Source: Nitrospirota bacterium (GTDB lineage: Bacteria; Nitrospirota; Leptospirillia; Leptospirillales; Leptospirillaceae). Taken from it: a stretch of 55,161 nt of DNA. The DNA lies in NCBI GenBank assembly GCA_021828805.1, contig JAJZCZ010000002.1, positions 1 through 55,161 on the forward strand, in the 5' to 3' direction. This document shows, in pieces, positions 26,957-32,665 of the stretch; positions within the stretch are counted from its first letter, which is position 1, and every line of letters starts with the position of its first letter. The translations under genes and the position numbers were made by a program. The notes under the pieces were generated by a model. That model had not been told where the DNA came from. It searched no databases and worked only from the letters and a program-made list of their open reading frames with translations.

Positions 26957-27985
26957 TCACTTCATTCTCTCCGCCAGATCTTCTGCCCTCAGATGCGTAT
27001 ATCGAGCCAACATTTGAAGCGTTTTGTGGCCGGTAATCGTTCTGACCTCCATCGTATCAAATCCCTTCTCAAAAAGCCGACTGGTGGCCTCATGCCGGAG
27101 ATCGTGGAAGGTCAGATCGACCAGGAAGGACGGGTCCGGTTTTTCCCCCTTCTCCGCGCATTCCTTCTTGTAGGAGTCCCGAGCCCGGGAGACGGCACGA
27201 ACGAAGGCTTGCGTGATGGAATCCGGCTCCATCCCCCAAACCTCTCCGTCGATTCTCCGGATCAGCCCGGACAGGATCCGGACGGCCTCCGTCGAGAGAG
27301 GCACGACCCGCTTTTCCCCGTTCTTTGTTTCCAGAATGGTCACTGTTCGCTTTTTAAGATCCACCATCTCCCAGGTCATCCCGGCAAGTTCTCCCCGCCT
27401 CATTCCTGTTTCAATGGCAAAGCGGACGATATCGGACAGAACGGGAGATTCGGAGGCAGCGACGATTCTCTCCAGTTCTCCTTGGAGTAGTCTTCGGTCC
27501 CGACCCCTTGGGAGCTTGGGTTTCCGGATCTGCATCACCGGATTGATCAGCCCGGCCATGCCCCATTCCTTGACTGCGATCGTGAAGAGATGGGAGAGAA
27601 GCGCGAGATCAAGGCGGACAGTGTTTGCAGAACCACCGGACTTTATCCGCTCATCCCTGAATGCGGCGATATCCTTTCCCTGGATCTGTGCGAGGCTTCG
27701 CTTTGAGATCGGCCAGCGTTTCAGAGCGTTTGCCCGGTTCGTTTCCCTTCGAAGCTGTTTTTTATGCGGAAGAATTTCGGAGATATATCTGTCCAGGGCT
27801 TCGGCAAGCGTTGTGTTTTCTGATTCTTTCCTGGAGACAAAGACTCCCCGACCTATTTCTGATTCGACTGTGGCCGCCCAGGCTTCTGCCTCGCCCTTCG
27901 TGTCGAACGTGCGGGAAATACGAGGAAAACCTTTCTTTTCGATCGATGCTTCCCATGCTCCCGACCGCTTCCGGAAATAGGCCAT
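26957..27985 (-). CDS. Tyrosine-type site-specific integrase
   Basis: Phage-integrase catalytic residues: ETGMRRGELAGMTW (R), HDLRHEATSRLF (HxxR), TGHKTLQMLARYTH (H, Y); start at MAYFRKRSGAWEA. Confidence 0.93.
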   Translation of the reverse strand: MAYFRKRSGAWEASIEKKGFPRISRTFDTKGEAEAWAATVESEIGRGVFVSRKESENTTLAEALDRYISEILPHKKQLRRETNRANALKRWPISKRSLAQIQGKDIAAFRDERIKSGGSANTVRLDLALLSHLFTIAVKEWGMAGLINPVMQIRKPKLPRGRDRRLLQGELERIVAASESPVLSDIVRFAIETGMRRGELAGMTWEMVDLKKRTVTILETKNGEKRVVPLSTEAVRILSGLIRRIDGEVWGMEPDSITQAFVRAVSRARDSYKKECAEKGEKPDPSFLVDLTFHDLRHEATSRLFEKGFDTMEVRTITGHKTLQMLARYTHLRAEDLAERMK

Positions 27986-28100
27986 TCTCATCCCTCCAAA
28001 AGTAATTTTCTCGGACAGGAAAATCATACTCTTTTGGAATTATCCCGGCAAATTCAACTTTTATTATGAGGGAATTTTTTTTAATGGCTCTGGCATTGGT

Positions 28101-28173
28101 GGCGATGGAGGGATTCGAACCCCCGACCGAGTGATTATGATTCACCTGCTCTGCCGACTGAGCTACATCGCCT
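28101..28173 (-). tRNA. tRNA-Met (CAT anticodon)
   Basis: Reverse complement GGCGATGTAGCTCAGTCGGCAGAGCAGGTGAATCATAATCACTCGGTCGGGGGTTCGAATCCCTCCATCGCCA folds as cloverleaf; loop ATCATAA gives anticodon CAT. Elongator Met favoured, Ile2 (lysidine) not excluded. Confidence 0.93.
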
Positions 28174-28285: not shown

Positions 28286-28717
28286 TTAGTGGTGATCCTT
28301 GCCGAAGTGGCCCTCACGGGTCAGCCGAGCGTGCTCCTTCATGATGCACTTATCCATCACCACCGACATACCCGCAATCTCCGCCATACGGTATCCCTCT
28401 TCACTGACAATCCCTTCCTGAATCCAGACCCGGGGAACGGCTGTTGCCACCGCCTCCCGCACCACATCGGGGATATCCGAGGCCTTTCGAAAAATCACCA
28501 CCAGATCAGGGGTCACAGGAAGGCTCTTCAGGTCAGGAAAGCAAGGGACATGCGCCACCGAGGTCAGATTGGGATTGACGGGAAATACCTCAAACCCGTG
28601 GTCCTTCAGGTAGCTCGCAACCGTGAGGCTGGGGCGACCAAGCTTGTCCGAAATACCGACAACGGCCACCGTCTCCGAGTCCTTCAGAATCGAATGTATG
28701 AGATCATTTTGTTCCAT
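28286..28717 (-). CDS. CoA-binding domain protein (YccU-like)
   Basis: ETVAVVGISDKLGRPSLTVASYLKDHGFEVFPVNPNL, VWIQEGIVSEEGYRMAEIAGMSVVMDKCIMKEHARL. Confidence 0.88.
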   Translation of the reverse strand: MEQNDLIHSILKDSETVAVVGISDKLGRPSLTVASYLKDHGFEVFPVNPNLTSVAHVPCFPDLKSLPVTPDLVVIFRKASDIPDVVREAVATAVPRVWIQEGIVSEEGYRMAEIAGMSVVMDKCIMKEHARLTREGHFGKDHH

Positions 28718-29002
28718 GGGCGTGACTTCTCCAGCACATTTTTCATCGTGAATACGTAGAAAAAACAAAAAAACTCCCGAGACGAATCGGGATAAAACAC
28801 TTGTCTGCATCAATCCCGCAGAACAAGGTTCTCGCAGGACAGGACCCGACCGGTTCCCTTCATGGTATCATAGGTTAATGGCGGACAGGAACCCGGAAAG
28901 GACGCGACATCAACCGGCATTGTCCATGCCTTCGACCGGAGCCAGAACCGGAACTCCGATACGAAAAACGGGACAGCGCTGAAAAACCCGAGGAACCTTA
29001 CC

Positions 29003-30160
29003 ATGATCCACCTGCATGTTGACGCGATGCCATTTTTTCGACCGGGAGTCCGGGAGGCCATCAATCGGGAACTTGATGACACCATCGTCCCCACGGCCCG
29101 AATCCGGAAGGGCCTCGACAAGGCCGAGCGACTGGAGCACTACCGTGAGGAGATTGCCCGGTATGCCCAAAGCCGACCGGAAGAAGTCGTCTTTGTCTCC
29201 TCCGTCACCGAGGCCAACGGATGGGCCATCCGGGGAGTCCGCTTTCCCGGAAACTCAGCCCCCAATCATGTTCTGATCTCGCCCCTCGAACACAGCTCCG
29301 TTCTCCGGAGTGCAGAGGCCCTTGCGCGGGATACCGGCGCAAAAATGCAGCTGGTGGCCCTGACCTCAAAGGGAGCGGTCGACCTCGATGCCCTCATAAA
29401 AAACTGGCCCGGAGATCGCACCCTGGTCTCGGTCCAACGGGTCAACCCCGAAACCGGCCTTCTCCAGCCAGTCTCAGACATTGCCCGCATCGTCCGGGAG
29501 CGAGGGGGCATTCTCCACAGTGACACCTCGGGATCCCACGGCTGGGAGATTCCCCTCTTCTCAAAAGACGGTCCGGACCTGATGTCTCTCTCATCCGCTT
29601 CAGCCGGAGGCCCTGCCGGGATCGCAGCGCTCCTGATCCGGCGGGGGATCCGGATCACTCCCTGGCTTCTGGGAGGCGCCCAGGAAGATGGCCGCCGGGC
29701 AGGAAGCCAGCCGGTCTTTCTTGCAGCCGGCTTTTCCCAGGCGCTTCTCCATGAAAAAGACTCCATCGACGGAGAGCGTCAGCGGCTTACTCATCTCGAC
29801 CAGATTTTTCTGTCTGCCATCACAAAAAACCATCCGGATGTGACGATCGTCGGCCTTGACGGGAAACGTCGGCCAGGCATTTTAAATCTCCTCGTCCCCG
29901 AGGTTGACGGCCAGGCCCTTCTCTCCCTCCTCGACAGGGAGGGGGTGGGGGTCGGAACCGGAGCCAGCTGCTCAGCCCAGTCCCTGACCGTGACACATGT
30001 ATTGACGGCTCTCGGCTACCCTGCACGCCGATCCCAGGGTTCCATTGTGCTCTCGTTCGGATGGTGGAACCAAGAGTCCGATCTCGAGCCCTTCCAAAAA
30101 GCTCTGGAAAAATCCCGGGGGCTCCTTTCCCGGATCAATGTCTCCGGTGCCACGGCCTAG
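29003..30160 (+). CDS. Cysteine desulfurase-fold (NifS/IscS-like) protein lacking the PLP lysine
   Basis: Class V aminotransferase pattern (FVSSVTEANGWAIRG, LISPLEHSSVLRSAEAL, VQRVNPETGLLQPVSDIA, GVGVGTGASCSAQSLTVTHVLTALG) but SxHKxxGPxG replaced by SSASAGGPAG. Confidence 0.85.
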   Translation: MIHLHVDAMPFFRPGVREAINRELDDTIVPTARIRKGLDKAERLEHYREEIARYAQSRPEEVVFVSSVTEANGWAIRGVRFPGNSAPNHVLISPLEHSSVLRSAEALARDTGAKMQLVALTSKGAVDLDALIKNWPGDRTLVSVQRVNPETGLLQPVSDIARIVRERGGILHSDTSGSHGWEIPLFSKDGPDLMSLSSASAGGPAGIAALLIRRGIRITPWLLGGAQEDGRRAGSQPVFLAAGFSQALLHEKDSIDGERQRLTHLDQIFLSAITKNHPDVTIVGLDGKRRPGILNLLVPEVDGQALLSLLDREGVGVGTGASCSAQSLTVTHVLTALGYPARRSQGSIVLSFGWWNQESDLEPFQKALEKSRGLLSRINVSGATA

Positions 30161-30246: not shown

Positions 30247-31149
30247 ATGAGTGAGAATAACGCCCAGGACGTTCATGCAATCATCGGAGGAACGGGATTT
30301 GTCGGACGCTATCTGGCCGACGCCCTCCGAACGGAAAAGAATACCCGGATCCGCCTTCTGGCACGAAACCACCCGGACTCCCTTCCTCCGGAGACCGAGT
30401 TTTACCCGGCGGATGCCGTCTCCGGAAAAGGCCTCAAGGAGGGCCTTGCCCGAGCCACCGTTGTCTGGTATCTGCCAGGGATCCTTGCCGAGACCCGGGA
30501 TCAATCCTATGAGATGGTCCACCACCAGGGGCTTGTCAACACATTGTCGGCCGTGGATCAGGGCAGCCTTCGGCATATCGTTCACATGAGCGCGGTGGGA
30601 ACCGCGCCCAACGCCCCCAGCGCCTACCACCGGACCAAGGCCCGCGGGGAAGAGGCCATCCGCAAGAGTGGCCTCCCATTCACGATCGTGAGACCCTCGC
30701 TCGTCTTTGGAACGGGTGACCGCTCCATCAATCAGTTTCTGGAGCTCGCACGACTCTTTCATATCCTGCCCATGATCGGACCGGGAACATCCCGGGTTCA
30801 GCCCATCTTTGCCGGTGACCTCGCCAAGTTCTGTGTCATGATCTCCTCCCGCCCTGACACACAGGGAAAGATCTTCGAGGTCGGCGGACCCCGCATCTAC
30901 ACCTACCGCCAGATGATGGAGGCGATCAGATCCTCAAAACACCTCAGCGCCCCCATACTGGGAGCCCCGGTGGGGATCATGATGGCCGCCGCCGTGGCGC
31001 AAAAACTTCTCCTGTCCCGGCCATTCCTGACTCCTGACGTTCTCAGGATGGCGCTTGCCGACAACGTTCCCGAGAAAAACGCATGCGTCGCCGACTTTGG
31101 CATGATCCTCCTGGGGCTCGAAGCATGGCTTGAAGAAAAGGAAGGCTGA
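30247..31149 (+). CDS. NAD(P)-binding epimerase/dehydratase family protein (NDUFA9-like)
   Basis: IIGGTGFVGRYLADALR, HMSAVGTAPNAPSAYHRTKARGEEAIRKSGLPFTIVRPSLVFG. Confidence 0.85.
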   Translation: MSENNAQDVHAIIGGTGFVGRYLADALRTEKNTRIRLLARNHPDSLPPETEFYPADAVSGKGLKEGLARATVVWYLPGILAETRDQSYEMVHHQGLVNTLSAVDQGSLRHIVHMSAVGTAPNAPSAYHRTKARGEEAIRKSGLPFTIVRPSLVFGTGDRSINQFLELARLFHILPMIGPGTSRVQPIFAGDLAKFCVMISSRPDTQGKIFEVGGPRIYTYRQMMEAIRSSKHLSAPILGAPVGIMMAAAVAQKLLLSRPFLTPDVLRMALADNVPEKNACVADFGMILLGLEAWLEEKEG

Positions 31150-31958
31150 TGGGAACCCTTCCCACACTTTTTCTCTCCCACGGAGCACCGAACTCTCTGG
31201 AAGACTCCGAATGGATGGAGACACTCAATACCTTGGGCAGGTCTCTCACCGATGTCAGGGGAGTGGTCGTACTTTCCGCCCATTGGGTGGAGCGGGGGAT
31301 TTTTGCCGGGCCGCTTGCCCCCTCCCCCCTGATCTATGATTTTTACGGTTTTCCCGAACGACTCTATCGCGTTCGCTACCCCGCCCCTCCCGGCGCAGAG
31401 CTCTTCGAGATCATCAAGAGCCTTCCCGGGATGCCGCCGATTACAGCGGCACCGGGAAGAGGCCTCGATCACGGGGTGTGGGTTCCCATGATGGGACTTT
31501 TTCCTGCTGCCGACCTCCCCGTACTCGGCCTTTCCCTTCCGGGGACAGACCCCGCCCGCCTCTATGCCCTGGGACAGTCCCTGGCTCCGCTTCGGGAACA
31601 AGGGATTCTCGTGGTGGGAAGCGGGGGTATGACACACAATCTCGGGGCCCTGATCCCCCAGGAGAATGCCCCTTCCGTTCCATGGGCCCATGCATTTGAC
31701 CAATGGGCGACAGACCGGCTTGAAGCCTCTGATGCCCTTTCACTGATCGACTTTCGAAGAAAAGCGCCGAACGCGGCGCTTGCCCATCCGACCATCGAAC
31801 ACTTTGCGCCTCTCTTTGTGGCGATGGGGGCTGCCGGAGAGACCTTTCGGGTCTCCTTCCCTGTCGATATCTTCCGCTATGGCTCCCTCTCTCTCCGCTC
31901 GGCAGCCTTTTGGAGCCCGGCAGGCTCTTCCAAACCCGAGCAATCTCCCCGACCTTGA
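31149..31958 (+). CDS. DODA-type (4,5-DOPA) extradiol dioxygenase family protein
   Basis: LFLSHGAPNSLEDSEW, VVVLSAHWVERG, DHGVWVPMMGLFP, VGSGGMTHNLGAL. Confidence 0.88.
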   Translation: MGTLPTLFLSHGAPNSLEDSEWMETLNTLGRSLTDVRGVVVLSAHWVERGIFAGPLAPSPLIYDFYGFPERLYRVRYPAPPGAELFEIIKSLPGMPPITAAPGRGLDHGVWVPMMGLFPAADLPVLGLSLPGTDPARLYALGQSLAPLREQGILVVGSGGMTHNLGALIPQENAPSVPWAHAFDQWATDRLEASDALSLIDFRRKAPNAALAHPTIEHFAPLFVAMGAAGETFRVSFPVDIFRYGSLSLRSAAFWSPAGSSKPEQSPRP

Positions 31959-32043: not shown

Positions 32044-32400
32044 ATGGAAAACAAGAACAATGTCACGATCAATGCCTATCTCAAGCCAAGCTGTGGCTGG
32101 AGTCGTGGAGTGCGGGCAGTCTTCAGCAAGTATTCCCTCCCCTACAACGACATCAACATCATCGGCAGCTCCGAAGCCTATAGCGAAATGGTGAAAAAAT
32201 CAGGACAACGTCTCTCTCCGTGCGTCGAAGTTGACGGAGTGATGCTTGCTGACGTGAGCGGTGAAGAGGTTGAAAACTATCTGATCTCCCGCGGCCTCGT
32301 CGCACCTGTCACCTCAAGCGATGCAACGCCTCTCGACAGGGGATGCCAGGATGGCGAACCGGTTGAAACAGGATCGTGGGGAACGAACAAGAGTTTCTGA
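32044..32400 (+). CDS. Glutaredoxin-like protein with CGWS active site
   Basis: NAYLKPSCGWSRGVRAVFSKYSLPYNDINI, RLSPCVEVDGVMLADVSGEEVENYL (cis-Pro region). Confidence 0.75.
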   Translation: MENKNNVTINAYLKPSCGWSRGVRAVFSKYSLPYNDINIIGSSEAYSEMVKKSGQRLSPCVEVDGVMLADVSGEEVENYLISRGLVAPVTSSDATPLDRGCQDGEPVETGSWGTNKSF

Positions 32401-32446: not shown

Positions 32447-32665
32447 TTGAGAATGCAGCGAGTGGAGTTGATGGAATCAGAAGGGATTGCAACCGGGGCG
32501 GACGTTCTGGCCAAAGGGGCCAAGTGGAAAGAGGTGGCGCTCGTCGTGGGAGCCTTCGTCTGGATTCCTGCCACACTCTACTTGCTTCTTTTTGCCCCCA
32601 TTCCCGTGGTCCACGACATGGTCCATCCTGTCCGCCACGCCTTCAGCTTTGTCATGTGCCACTAG
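32447..32665 (+). CDS. CbtB-like single-TM protein with His-rich C-terminus
   Basis: One TM helix (VALVVGAFVWIPATLYLLLFAPIP) and C-terminal VVHDMVHPVRHAFSFVMCH resembling CbtB. Confidence 0.6.
   Translation: MRMQRVELMESEGIATGADVLAKGAKWKEVALVVGAFVWIPATLYLLLFAPIPVVHDMVHPVRHAFSFVMCH

Follow-up and report, generated by a model that had tools for sequence, protein, structure and literature searches.

What role is left to a protein that keeps the fold and the loop cysteine of a cysteine desulfurase but has lost the lysine that would bind PLP? The question is raised by a gene in a 55,161-nucleotide stretch of Nitrospirota DNA (the whole of which is herein referred to as the window; contig C115 of a genome estimated to be 78% complete), for which a first-pass annotation had described an intact, NifS/IscS-like reading frame with Ala-Ser in place of the His-Lys pair.

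Fold and active-site residues of the window protein

The frame is indeed open from an ATG start and encodes 385 residues, and alignment with E. coli IscS bears out the substitutions first noticed: Ala199 and Ser200, within the segment SLSSASAGGPAG, sit at IscS His205 and Lys206, and the HVDATQ motif reads HSDTSG, with Gly in place of Gln183. The EH motif (PLEHSSV) and the loop cysteine (Cys323 in GTGASCSAQS) are present, as had also been described. The alignment adds two losses to that list, Asn155 to Pro and the substrate-carboxylate Arg354 to Val, and shows that His104 and Asp180 are kept; at the remaining IscS sites compared, the window protein has Thr (T76), Ser (S203) and Ser (T243). The gene and its diagnostic codons are as follows:

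29003..30160, + strand: 385-residue protein of the NifS/IscS fold, lacking the PLP lysine (Pfam, NCBIfam, structure model, 18 aligned family sequences)
29291..29293, + strand: His97 codon, equivalent to IscS His104 (ring-stacking His), kept in 18/18
29522..29524, + strand: Asp174 codon, equivalent to IscS Asp180 (partner of the PLP pyridine N), kept in 18/18
29597..29602, + strand: codons GCT TCA (Ala199 at 29597, Ser200 at 29600), replacing IscS His205-Lys206
29969..29971, + strand: Cys323 codon, equivalent to IscS Cys328, in the loop GTGASCSAQS, kept in 18/18
30047..30049, + strand: Val349 codon, replacing IscS Arg354 (substrate carboxylate), Val in 18/18

Membership of the wider fold is clear from both sequence and model. 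Pfam Aminotran_5 matches the protein at 4.3e-38, its top PDB sequence matches are IscS proteins, and an AlphaFold2 model built from 18 aligned sequences (pLDDT 87, pTM 0.87) lies nearest to human NFS1 complexes and to the IscS proteins of A. fulgidus, M. tuberculosis and E. coli, with TM scores of 0.85–0.91 (by query length) against IscS/NFS1 structures; the low-confidence stretches of the model are the Cys loop (322–328) and residues 223–234. The protein nonetheless passes no curated NCBIfam cut-off, every model falling below threshold, and the top match, the NifS model TIGR03402, reaches 215 bits versus a cut-off of 530.75. Judged against group I cysteine desulfurases, it has the class V fold, the equivalent of Cys328, and His104 and Asp180, and lacks Lys206, Gln183 and Arg354 as well as a passing NCBIfam score. 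It shares fold and Cys loop with the canonical members E. coli IscS and NifS, and differs from them in having no PLP lysine, Gln183, His205 or Arg354.

Orthologues and gene neighbourhood in Leptospirillaceae

Full-length orthologues of this protein (the window type) occur in 17 of the 21 genomes of inferred Leptospirillaceae that were searched, spanning five genera at 36–77% identity; a fragment alone lies at a contig start in genome G007, and no window-type gene was found in G009, G010 or G020 (72–89% complete). Residue counts for the type refer to 18 sequences from these 17 genomes, one of which has two copies. Among 396 Nitrospirota genomes the window type (matches above 570 bits) is confined to Leptospirillaceae, the next matches scoring 324 bits, and a search of contigs with the window protein alone returned one distant Dadabacteria locus, the peptide patterns being too specific to gauge spread beyond the phylum.

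The orthologues show that the lysine is missing from all 18 sequences (17 assemblies), its column holding Ala in six, Ser in five, Arg in four and Val in three. Cys328, His104, Asp180 and Ser203 are invariant (18/18), Arg354 is replaced by Val throughout, the T76 column is always Thr or Ser, and the Q183 column is Ala, Gly or Thr. No column of the alignment has a conserved Lys (the best has Lys in 11 of 18 rows), on which ground a PLP lysine that has migrated within the protein was rejected, and the Cys loop ranks among the most constrained stretches. Pairwise dN/dS within the type is 0.09–0.18 (NG86, with some dS values above 1 and hence near saturation), and by this measure the type evolves faster than the isc-operon IscS of the same family. 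Orthologues in independent assemblies, together with these ratios, rule out sequencing error or single-strain decay as the cause of the lysine loss. Of the objections that the first-pass annotation had raised against its own reading, random decay in one strain falls away, and the evidence strongly suggests that the window-type gene encodes a conserved pseudo-desulfurase and not a decaying one. The proposal of a pseudoenzyme that keeps its cysteine gains from the lack of an alternative Lys, from further losses at the PLP site, and from the invariant Cys loop, purifying selection and presence in five genera. Separately, genome G000 contains a second window locus (L031, G000:C23:1-4664), the NifS-like gene of which is 99.5% identical to that of G004, another species, and 73% identical to that of the window; this locus is probably assembly contamination or a recent transfer.

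The CoA-binding and CGWS glutaredoxin neighbours named in the first-pass annotation are recognized by Pfam and belong to the following surroundings:

28286..28813, - strand: CoA_binding_2 protein, divergent, beside the NifS-like gene in genera g1 and g3 and at one further locus (PF13380, 5.7e-35; synteny)
30247..31149, + strand: SDR / NAD-dependent epimerase-like protein, the immediate downstream neighbour at almost all loci (PF01370, 1e-12)
31149..31958, + strand: LigB/DODA-type dioxygenase-like protein, window genus only (PF02900, 8.7e-29)
32044..32400, + strand: glutaredoxin-like CGWS protein, in conserved synteny in four of five genera (PF00462, 1.1e-8)
32447..32665, + strand: end of the conserved block, a small membrane protein with the C-terminal sequence HPVRHAFSFVMCH that resembles CbtB in motif alone

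The genes of the window genus thus run CoA_binding_2 (divergent), NifS-like, SDR, LigB/DODA-like, CGWS glutaredoxin-like and small CbtB-like; in g3 the order is CoA-binding (divergent), DUF3501, NifS-like, SDR, glutaredoxin and CbtB-like, and in g5 RFO, DUF3501, NifS-like, SDR and glutaredoxin, with which the parts of the g2 and g4 loci that were read agree. DUF3501 is present in 6 of the 21 family genomes, in each case as the gene immediately preceding the NifS-like one; no DUF3501 was found among the 14 window-genus genomes. DUF3501 and RFO are known as companions of aerobic-type rubrerythrin (PMC5114695); peroxiredoxin-like (Bcp motif) and rubrerythrin-associated oxidoreductase genes, along with those for DUF3501 and glutaredoxin, lie near the window-type gene in genera other than that of the window. 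No IscU or TusA gene was found beside it at the family loci, and the IscU of each family genome with a match adjoins the isc-operon IscS rather than the window-type gene. Given the block with DUF3501, RFO and glutaredoxin, the setting of the window-type gene is redox-linked and is not that of an Fe–S operon.

Two further observations concern the neighbourhood. Upstream in the window (26957-28172), a phage-type integrase gene lies next to a tRNA-Met (28097-28172), which points to a likely integrated element with its end just before the CoA-binding gene. At locus L086 (G182:C19:78000-91000), rubrerythrin-like, RFO and DUF3501 genes are found beside a convergent pair of TusA-like and lysine-less NifS genes, an arrangement from which the family's DUF3501/NifS-like linkage may have arisen.

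The isc-operon IscS and other sulfur genes of the family

Unexpectedly, the housekeeping isc IscS in these bacteria, judged by its residues, is also without a PLP site; the first-pass annotation, correct about the lysine loss in the window protein, had caught just one of two lysine-less paralogues. Lys206 is absent from the isc-operon IscS in 20 of 20 family genomes in which the protein was found (including G000:C42; L131, L169), with no match in G001 (66% complete), and the two lysine-less paralogues occur together in 16 of the 21 genomes. Across the 20 sequences, the H104 column is Ile (14) or Gly (6), Asn155 is replaced by His in 19, and Asp180, Gln183, Ser203 and Lys206 are replaced in all 20 by Asn, Tyr, Asn and Leu, respectively; T76, H205, T243, C328 and R354 remain in every one of the 20, and the GPKG Lys, which might conceivably stand in for the lost lysine, is invariant in the alignment. 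The protein is ~53–56% identical to E. coli IscS and under strong constraint (dN/dS of 0.02–0.07), and its gene is directly upstream of IscU in all 20 genomes; the operons that were read comprise an IscR-like regulator, isc IscS and IscU, then HscB, HscA, ferredoxin and an IscX-like gene, with an IscA-like gene called in one. NCBI PRK14012 accepts this lysine-less protein as ‘IscS subfamily cysteine desulfurase’ (593–616 bits, cut-off 548), and it scores below the TIGR02006 cut-off. The ten closest IscS proteins read from outside the family all keep TEH, DATQ and HK. In seven genomes from four genera (L167, L168, L169, L232-L236), the isc operon is preceded at a distance of a few kb by genes for ATP sulfurylase and/or an APS-reductase-like protein, which were not found near it in G015 (presumed L. 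ferrooxidans); this proximity is consistent with a supply of sulfide, or may be chance.

In a tree of 82 proteins, obtained by a quick search with long-branch warnings and of which the separation of the two lysine-less groups is the safe part, the window type forms one clade (100 SH-aLRT) that is nearest to other lysine-less Nitrospirota proteins, and the lysine-less isc IscS sits apart, inside a clade of Lys-bearing IscS from E. coli and Nitrospirota. Because the two groups are separate, the lysine has, to judge from this tree, been lost at least twice among the proteins of Leptospirillaceae. Lysine-less IscS proteins of other Nitrospirota (L072-L080, L082, L085, L087, L090), spread across the phylum, have Gln, Glu, Leu, Ile or Arg at Lys206; at most of these loci, genes for a TusA-like carrier and IscU accompany the IscS gene, and an IscR-like gene is a frequent addition. 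They resemble the window type in keeping His104, Asp180 and the Cys, in having Ala at Gln183 and in mostly having Val at Arg354; unlike the window type, they keep His205 and often have TusA and IscU adjacent.

An inventory of class V proteins (Pfam PF00266 over the 21 family genomes, mostly drafts, with the sequences read) identified Lys-bearing NifS copies in part of the family, patchily and as two types, x and y. At both loci examined, type y is part of a nif gene cluster (NifB-like radical SAM and DUF269 genes in one, a NifB-like gene in the other), and the one type x locus examined has ArsD and ArsA nearby; a further type x copy (L146, G015:C1:1271678-1272755) runs over two frames and is apparently disrupted. 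No Lys-bearing NifS was found in G017 (99% complete), G012 (95%) or G016 (89%), or in the less complete G000, G001, G007, G011 and G018, an absence that carries weight only where these drafts are most complete. A SufS-type back-up enzyme was likewise sought and rejected in G017 and G012, where the remaining class V matches comprise an aminotransferase of the aspartate-glyoxylate type, GcvPB and decarboxylases (for G012, three proteins were assigned by similarity to their G017 counterparts). All 15 other Nitrospirota genomes checked have a Lys-bearing paralogue. TusA is present in 20 of the 21 family genomes and rhodanese in 8 of the 10 searched, and the persistence of MnmA-like, TusA and rhodanese genes in most family genomes checked indicates that sulfur-using pathways have not been lost.

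Precedents, rival readings and consequences

An IscS without desulfurase activity is already known from archaea. The A. fulgidus protein (PDB 4eb5, 4eb7, 4hvk; D199K mutant 4r5f), in which Lys is replaced by Asp, is reported to be inactive as a desulfurase and to provide its Cys as a ligand to the cluster on IscU (PMC7585200). Like the window protein it has the group I fold, a lost Lys and a kept loop Cys, and like the window type it keeps the equivalents of His104, Asp180 and Ser203 and has lost that of Arg354; however, it shares 27–29% identity with the window protein, keeps the equivalent of Asn155, lies outside the window clade in the tree and works with IscU, which the window-type gene does not adjoin. 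Of the features of such a scaffold, the window protein has the replaced Lys and the kept Cys and is not encoded with IscU, and the isc-operon IscS has all three, with IscU directly downstream. Methanosarcina acetivorans IscS1, a paralogue of an active IscS, is also without the catalytic lysine (PMC7585200); set beside the window protein by description only, it shares the missing lysine and differs in being archaeal and encoded beside iscU1. In E. coli IscS, the K206A, H104Q and Q183E variants are reported to have no desulfurase activity, K206A retaining some PLP (PMC9978102), and under anaerobic conditions the IscU of E. coli can be supplied by sulfide in the absence of IscS (PMC13015791).

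From these residues we strongly infer that both lysine-less proteins have lost desulfurase chemistry; what we propose for their sulfur source, partners and persulfide is conjectural. The published mutants, A. fulgidus IscS and the feeding of IscU by sulfide lead us to take both as PLP-free platforms. We hypothesize, and consider somewhat probable, that the window gene encodes a NifS paralogue, found across the family, whose function is that of a PLP-free sulfur relay or scaffold and no longer that of a PLP-dependent cysteine desulfurase. Its loop Cys would accept sulfur supplied as sulfide or polysulfide, or by a carrier (TusA, rhodanese), and pass it on, or would alternatively be an exchangeable ligand in Fe–S assembly or repair, probably with the glutaredoxin as partner, a role similar to that suggested for A. 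fulgidus IscS. In the isc operon, where the PLP site was separately lost, housekeeping Fe–S assembly would probably proceed on a PLP-free platform fed by sulfide or persulfide. The wider picture, to which we give slightly less than an even chance, is of a family-wide ISC system with such an IscS, the window paralogue in a separate redox-linked branch, and members without a nif cluster or an acquired NifS having no class V cysteine desulfurase at all.

Invariant His104 and Asp180 would be odd had the PLP site of the window type simply been abandoned, which leaves room for a non-covalent ligand. The window protein could bind PLP, PMP or another phosphate ligand in this manner and catalyse some other reaction, partnered by the CGWS glutaredoxin and the SDR, as the invariance of Ser203, the constant Thr/Ser at T76, the PLP retained by IscS K206A (PMC9978102) and the conserved block with the SDR (plus a dioxygenase-like protein in one genus) would allow; however, His205, Gln183, Asn155 and Arg354 are missing, there is no conserved Lys to serve as general base, and constraint is concentrated among other stretches on the Cys loop, such that we regard this reading as unlikely. 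That same loop, kept entire with IscS-like spacing and hence beyond the needs of a lone sensor Cys, makes it rather improbable that the protein is a regulatory or structural subunit that dimerises with isc IscS or competes for IscU and uses its Cys for redox sensing and not for sulfur transfer, a role that the co-occurrence of the paralogues (16/21 genomes) and the peroxiredoxin-like, rubrerythrin-associated oxidoreductase, DUF3501 and glutaredoxin genes nearby in other genera would suit. The three genomes in which the gene was not found, the fragment in G007 and evolution faster than that of isc IscS are what would be seen of a decaying paralogue heading for loss, but purifying selection over five genera, 18 intact frames, the invariant Cys loop and conserved synteny make decay very improbable.

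The relay or scaffold reading, extended to the isc operon, bears on a general assumption, as the sulfur source of bacterial ISC systems is usually taken to be a cysteine desulfurase and the lysine-less proteins are annotated accordingly. If it is correct, the source of sulfur for housekeeping Fe–S assembly is reopened in an acid-loving, iron-oxidising family relevant to biomining, and roles of IscS beyond sulfur donation become testable with proteins that naturally lack the PLP site and come from aerobic bacteria, not from anaerobic archaea. The cysteine desulfurase activity published for Leptospirillum extracts would also need another explanation (PMC9628965): crude extract of strain CF-1 formed thiocyanate from cysteine and cyanide, which was ascribed to IscS as the sole desulfurase gene detected, and such an assay can also respond to other sulfur-transfer reactions. 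Our literature searches, with most subscription papers outside their scope, returned nothing on lysine loss in Leptospirillum IscS. The type strain of L. ferriphilum expresses proteins annotated as NifS and NifU, and strain ML-04 is reported to have no nif cluster (PMC5772234); since the family genomes carry a single full IscU-type gene, beside isc IscS, the expressed pair may be the isc pair. When the published CF-1 iscS primers were compared with the family, six loci gave the right amplicon length and frame, but with 6 to 12 mismatches in all.
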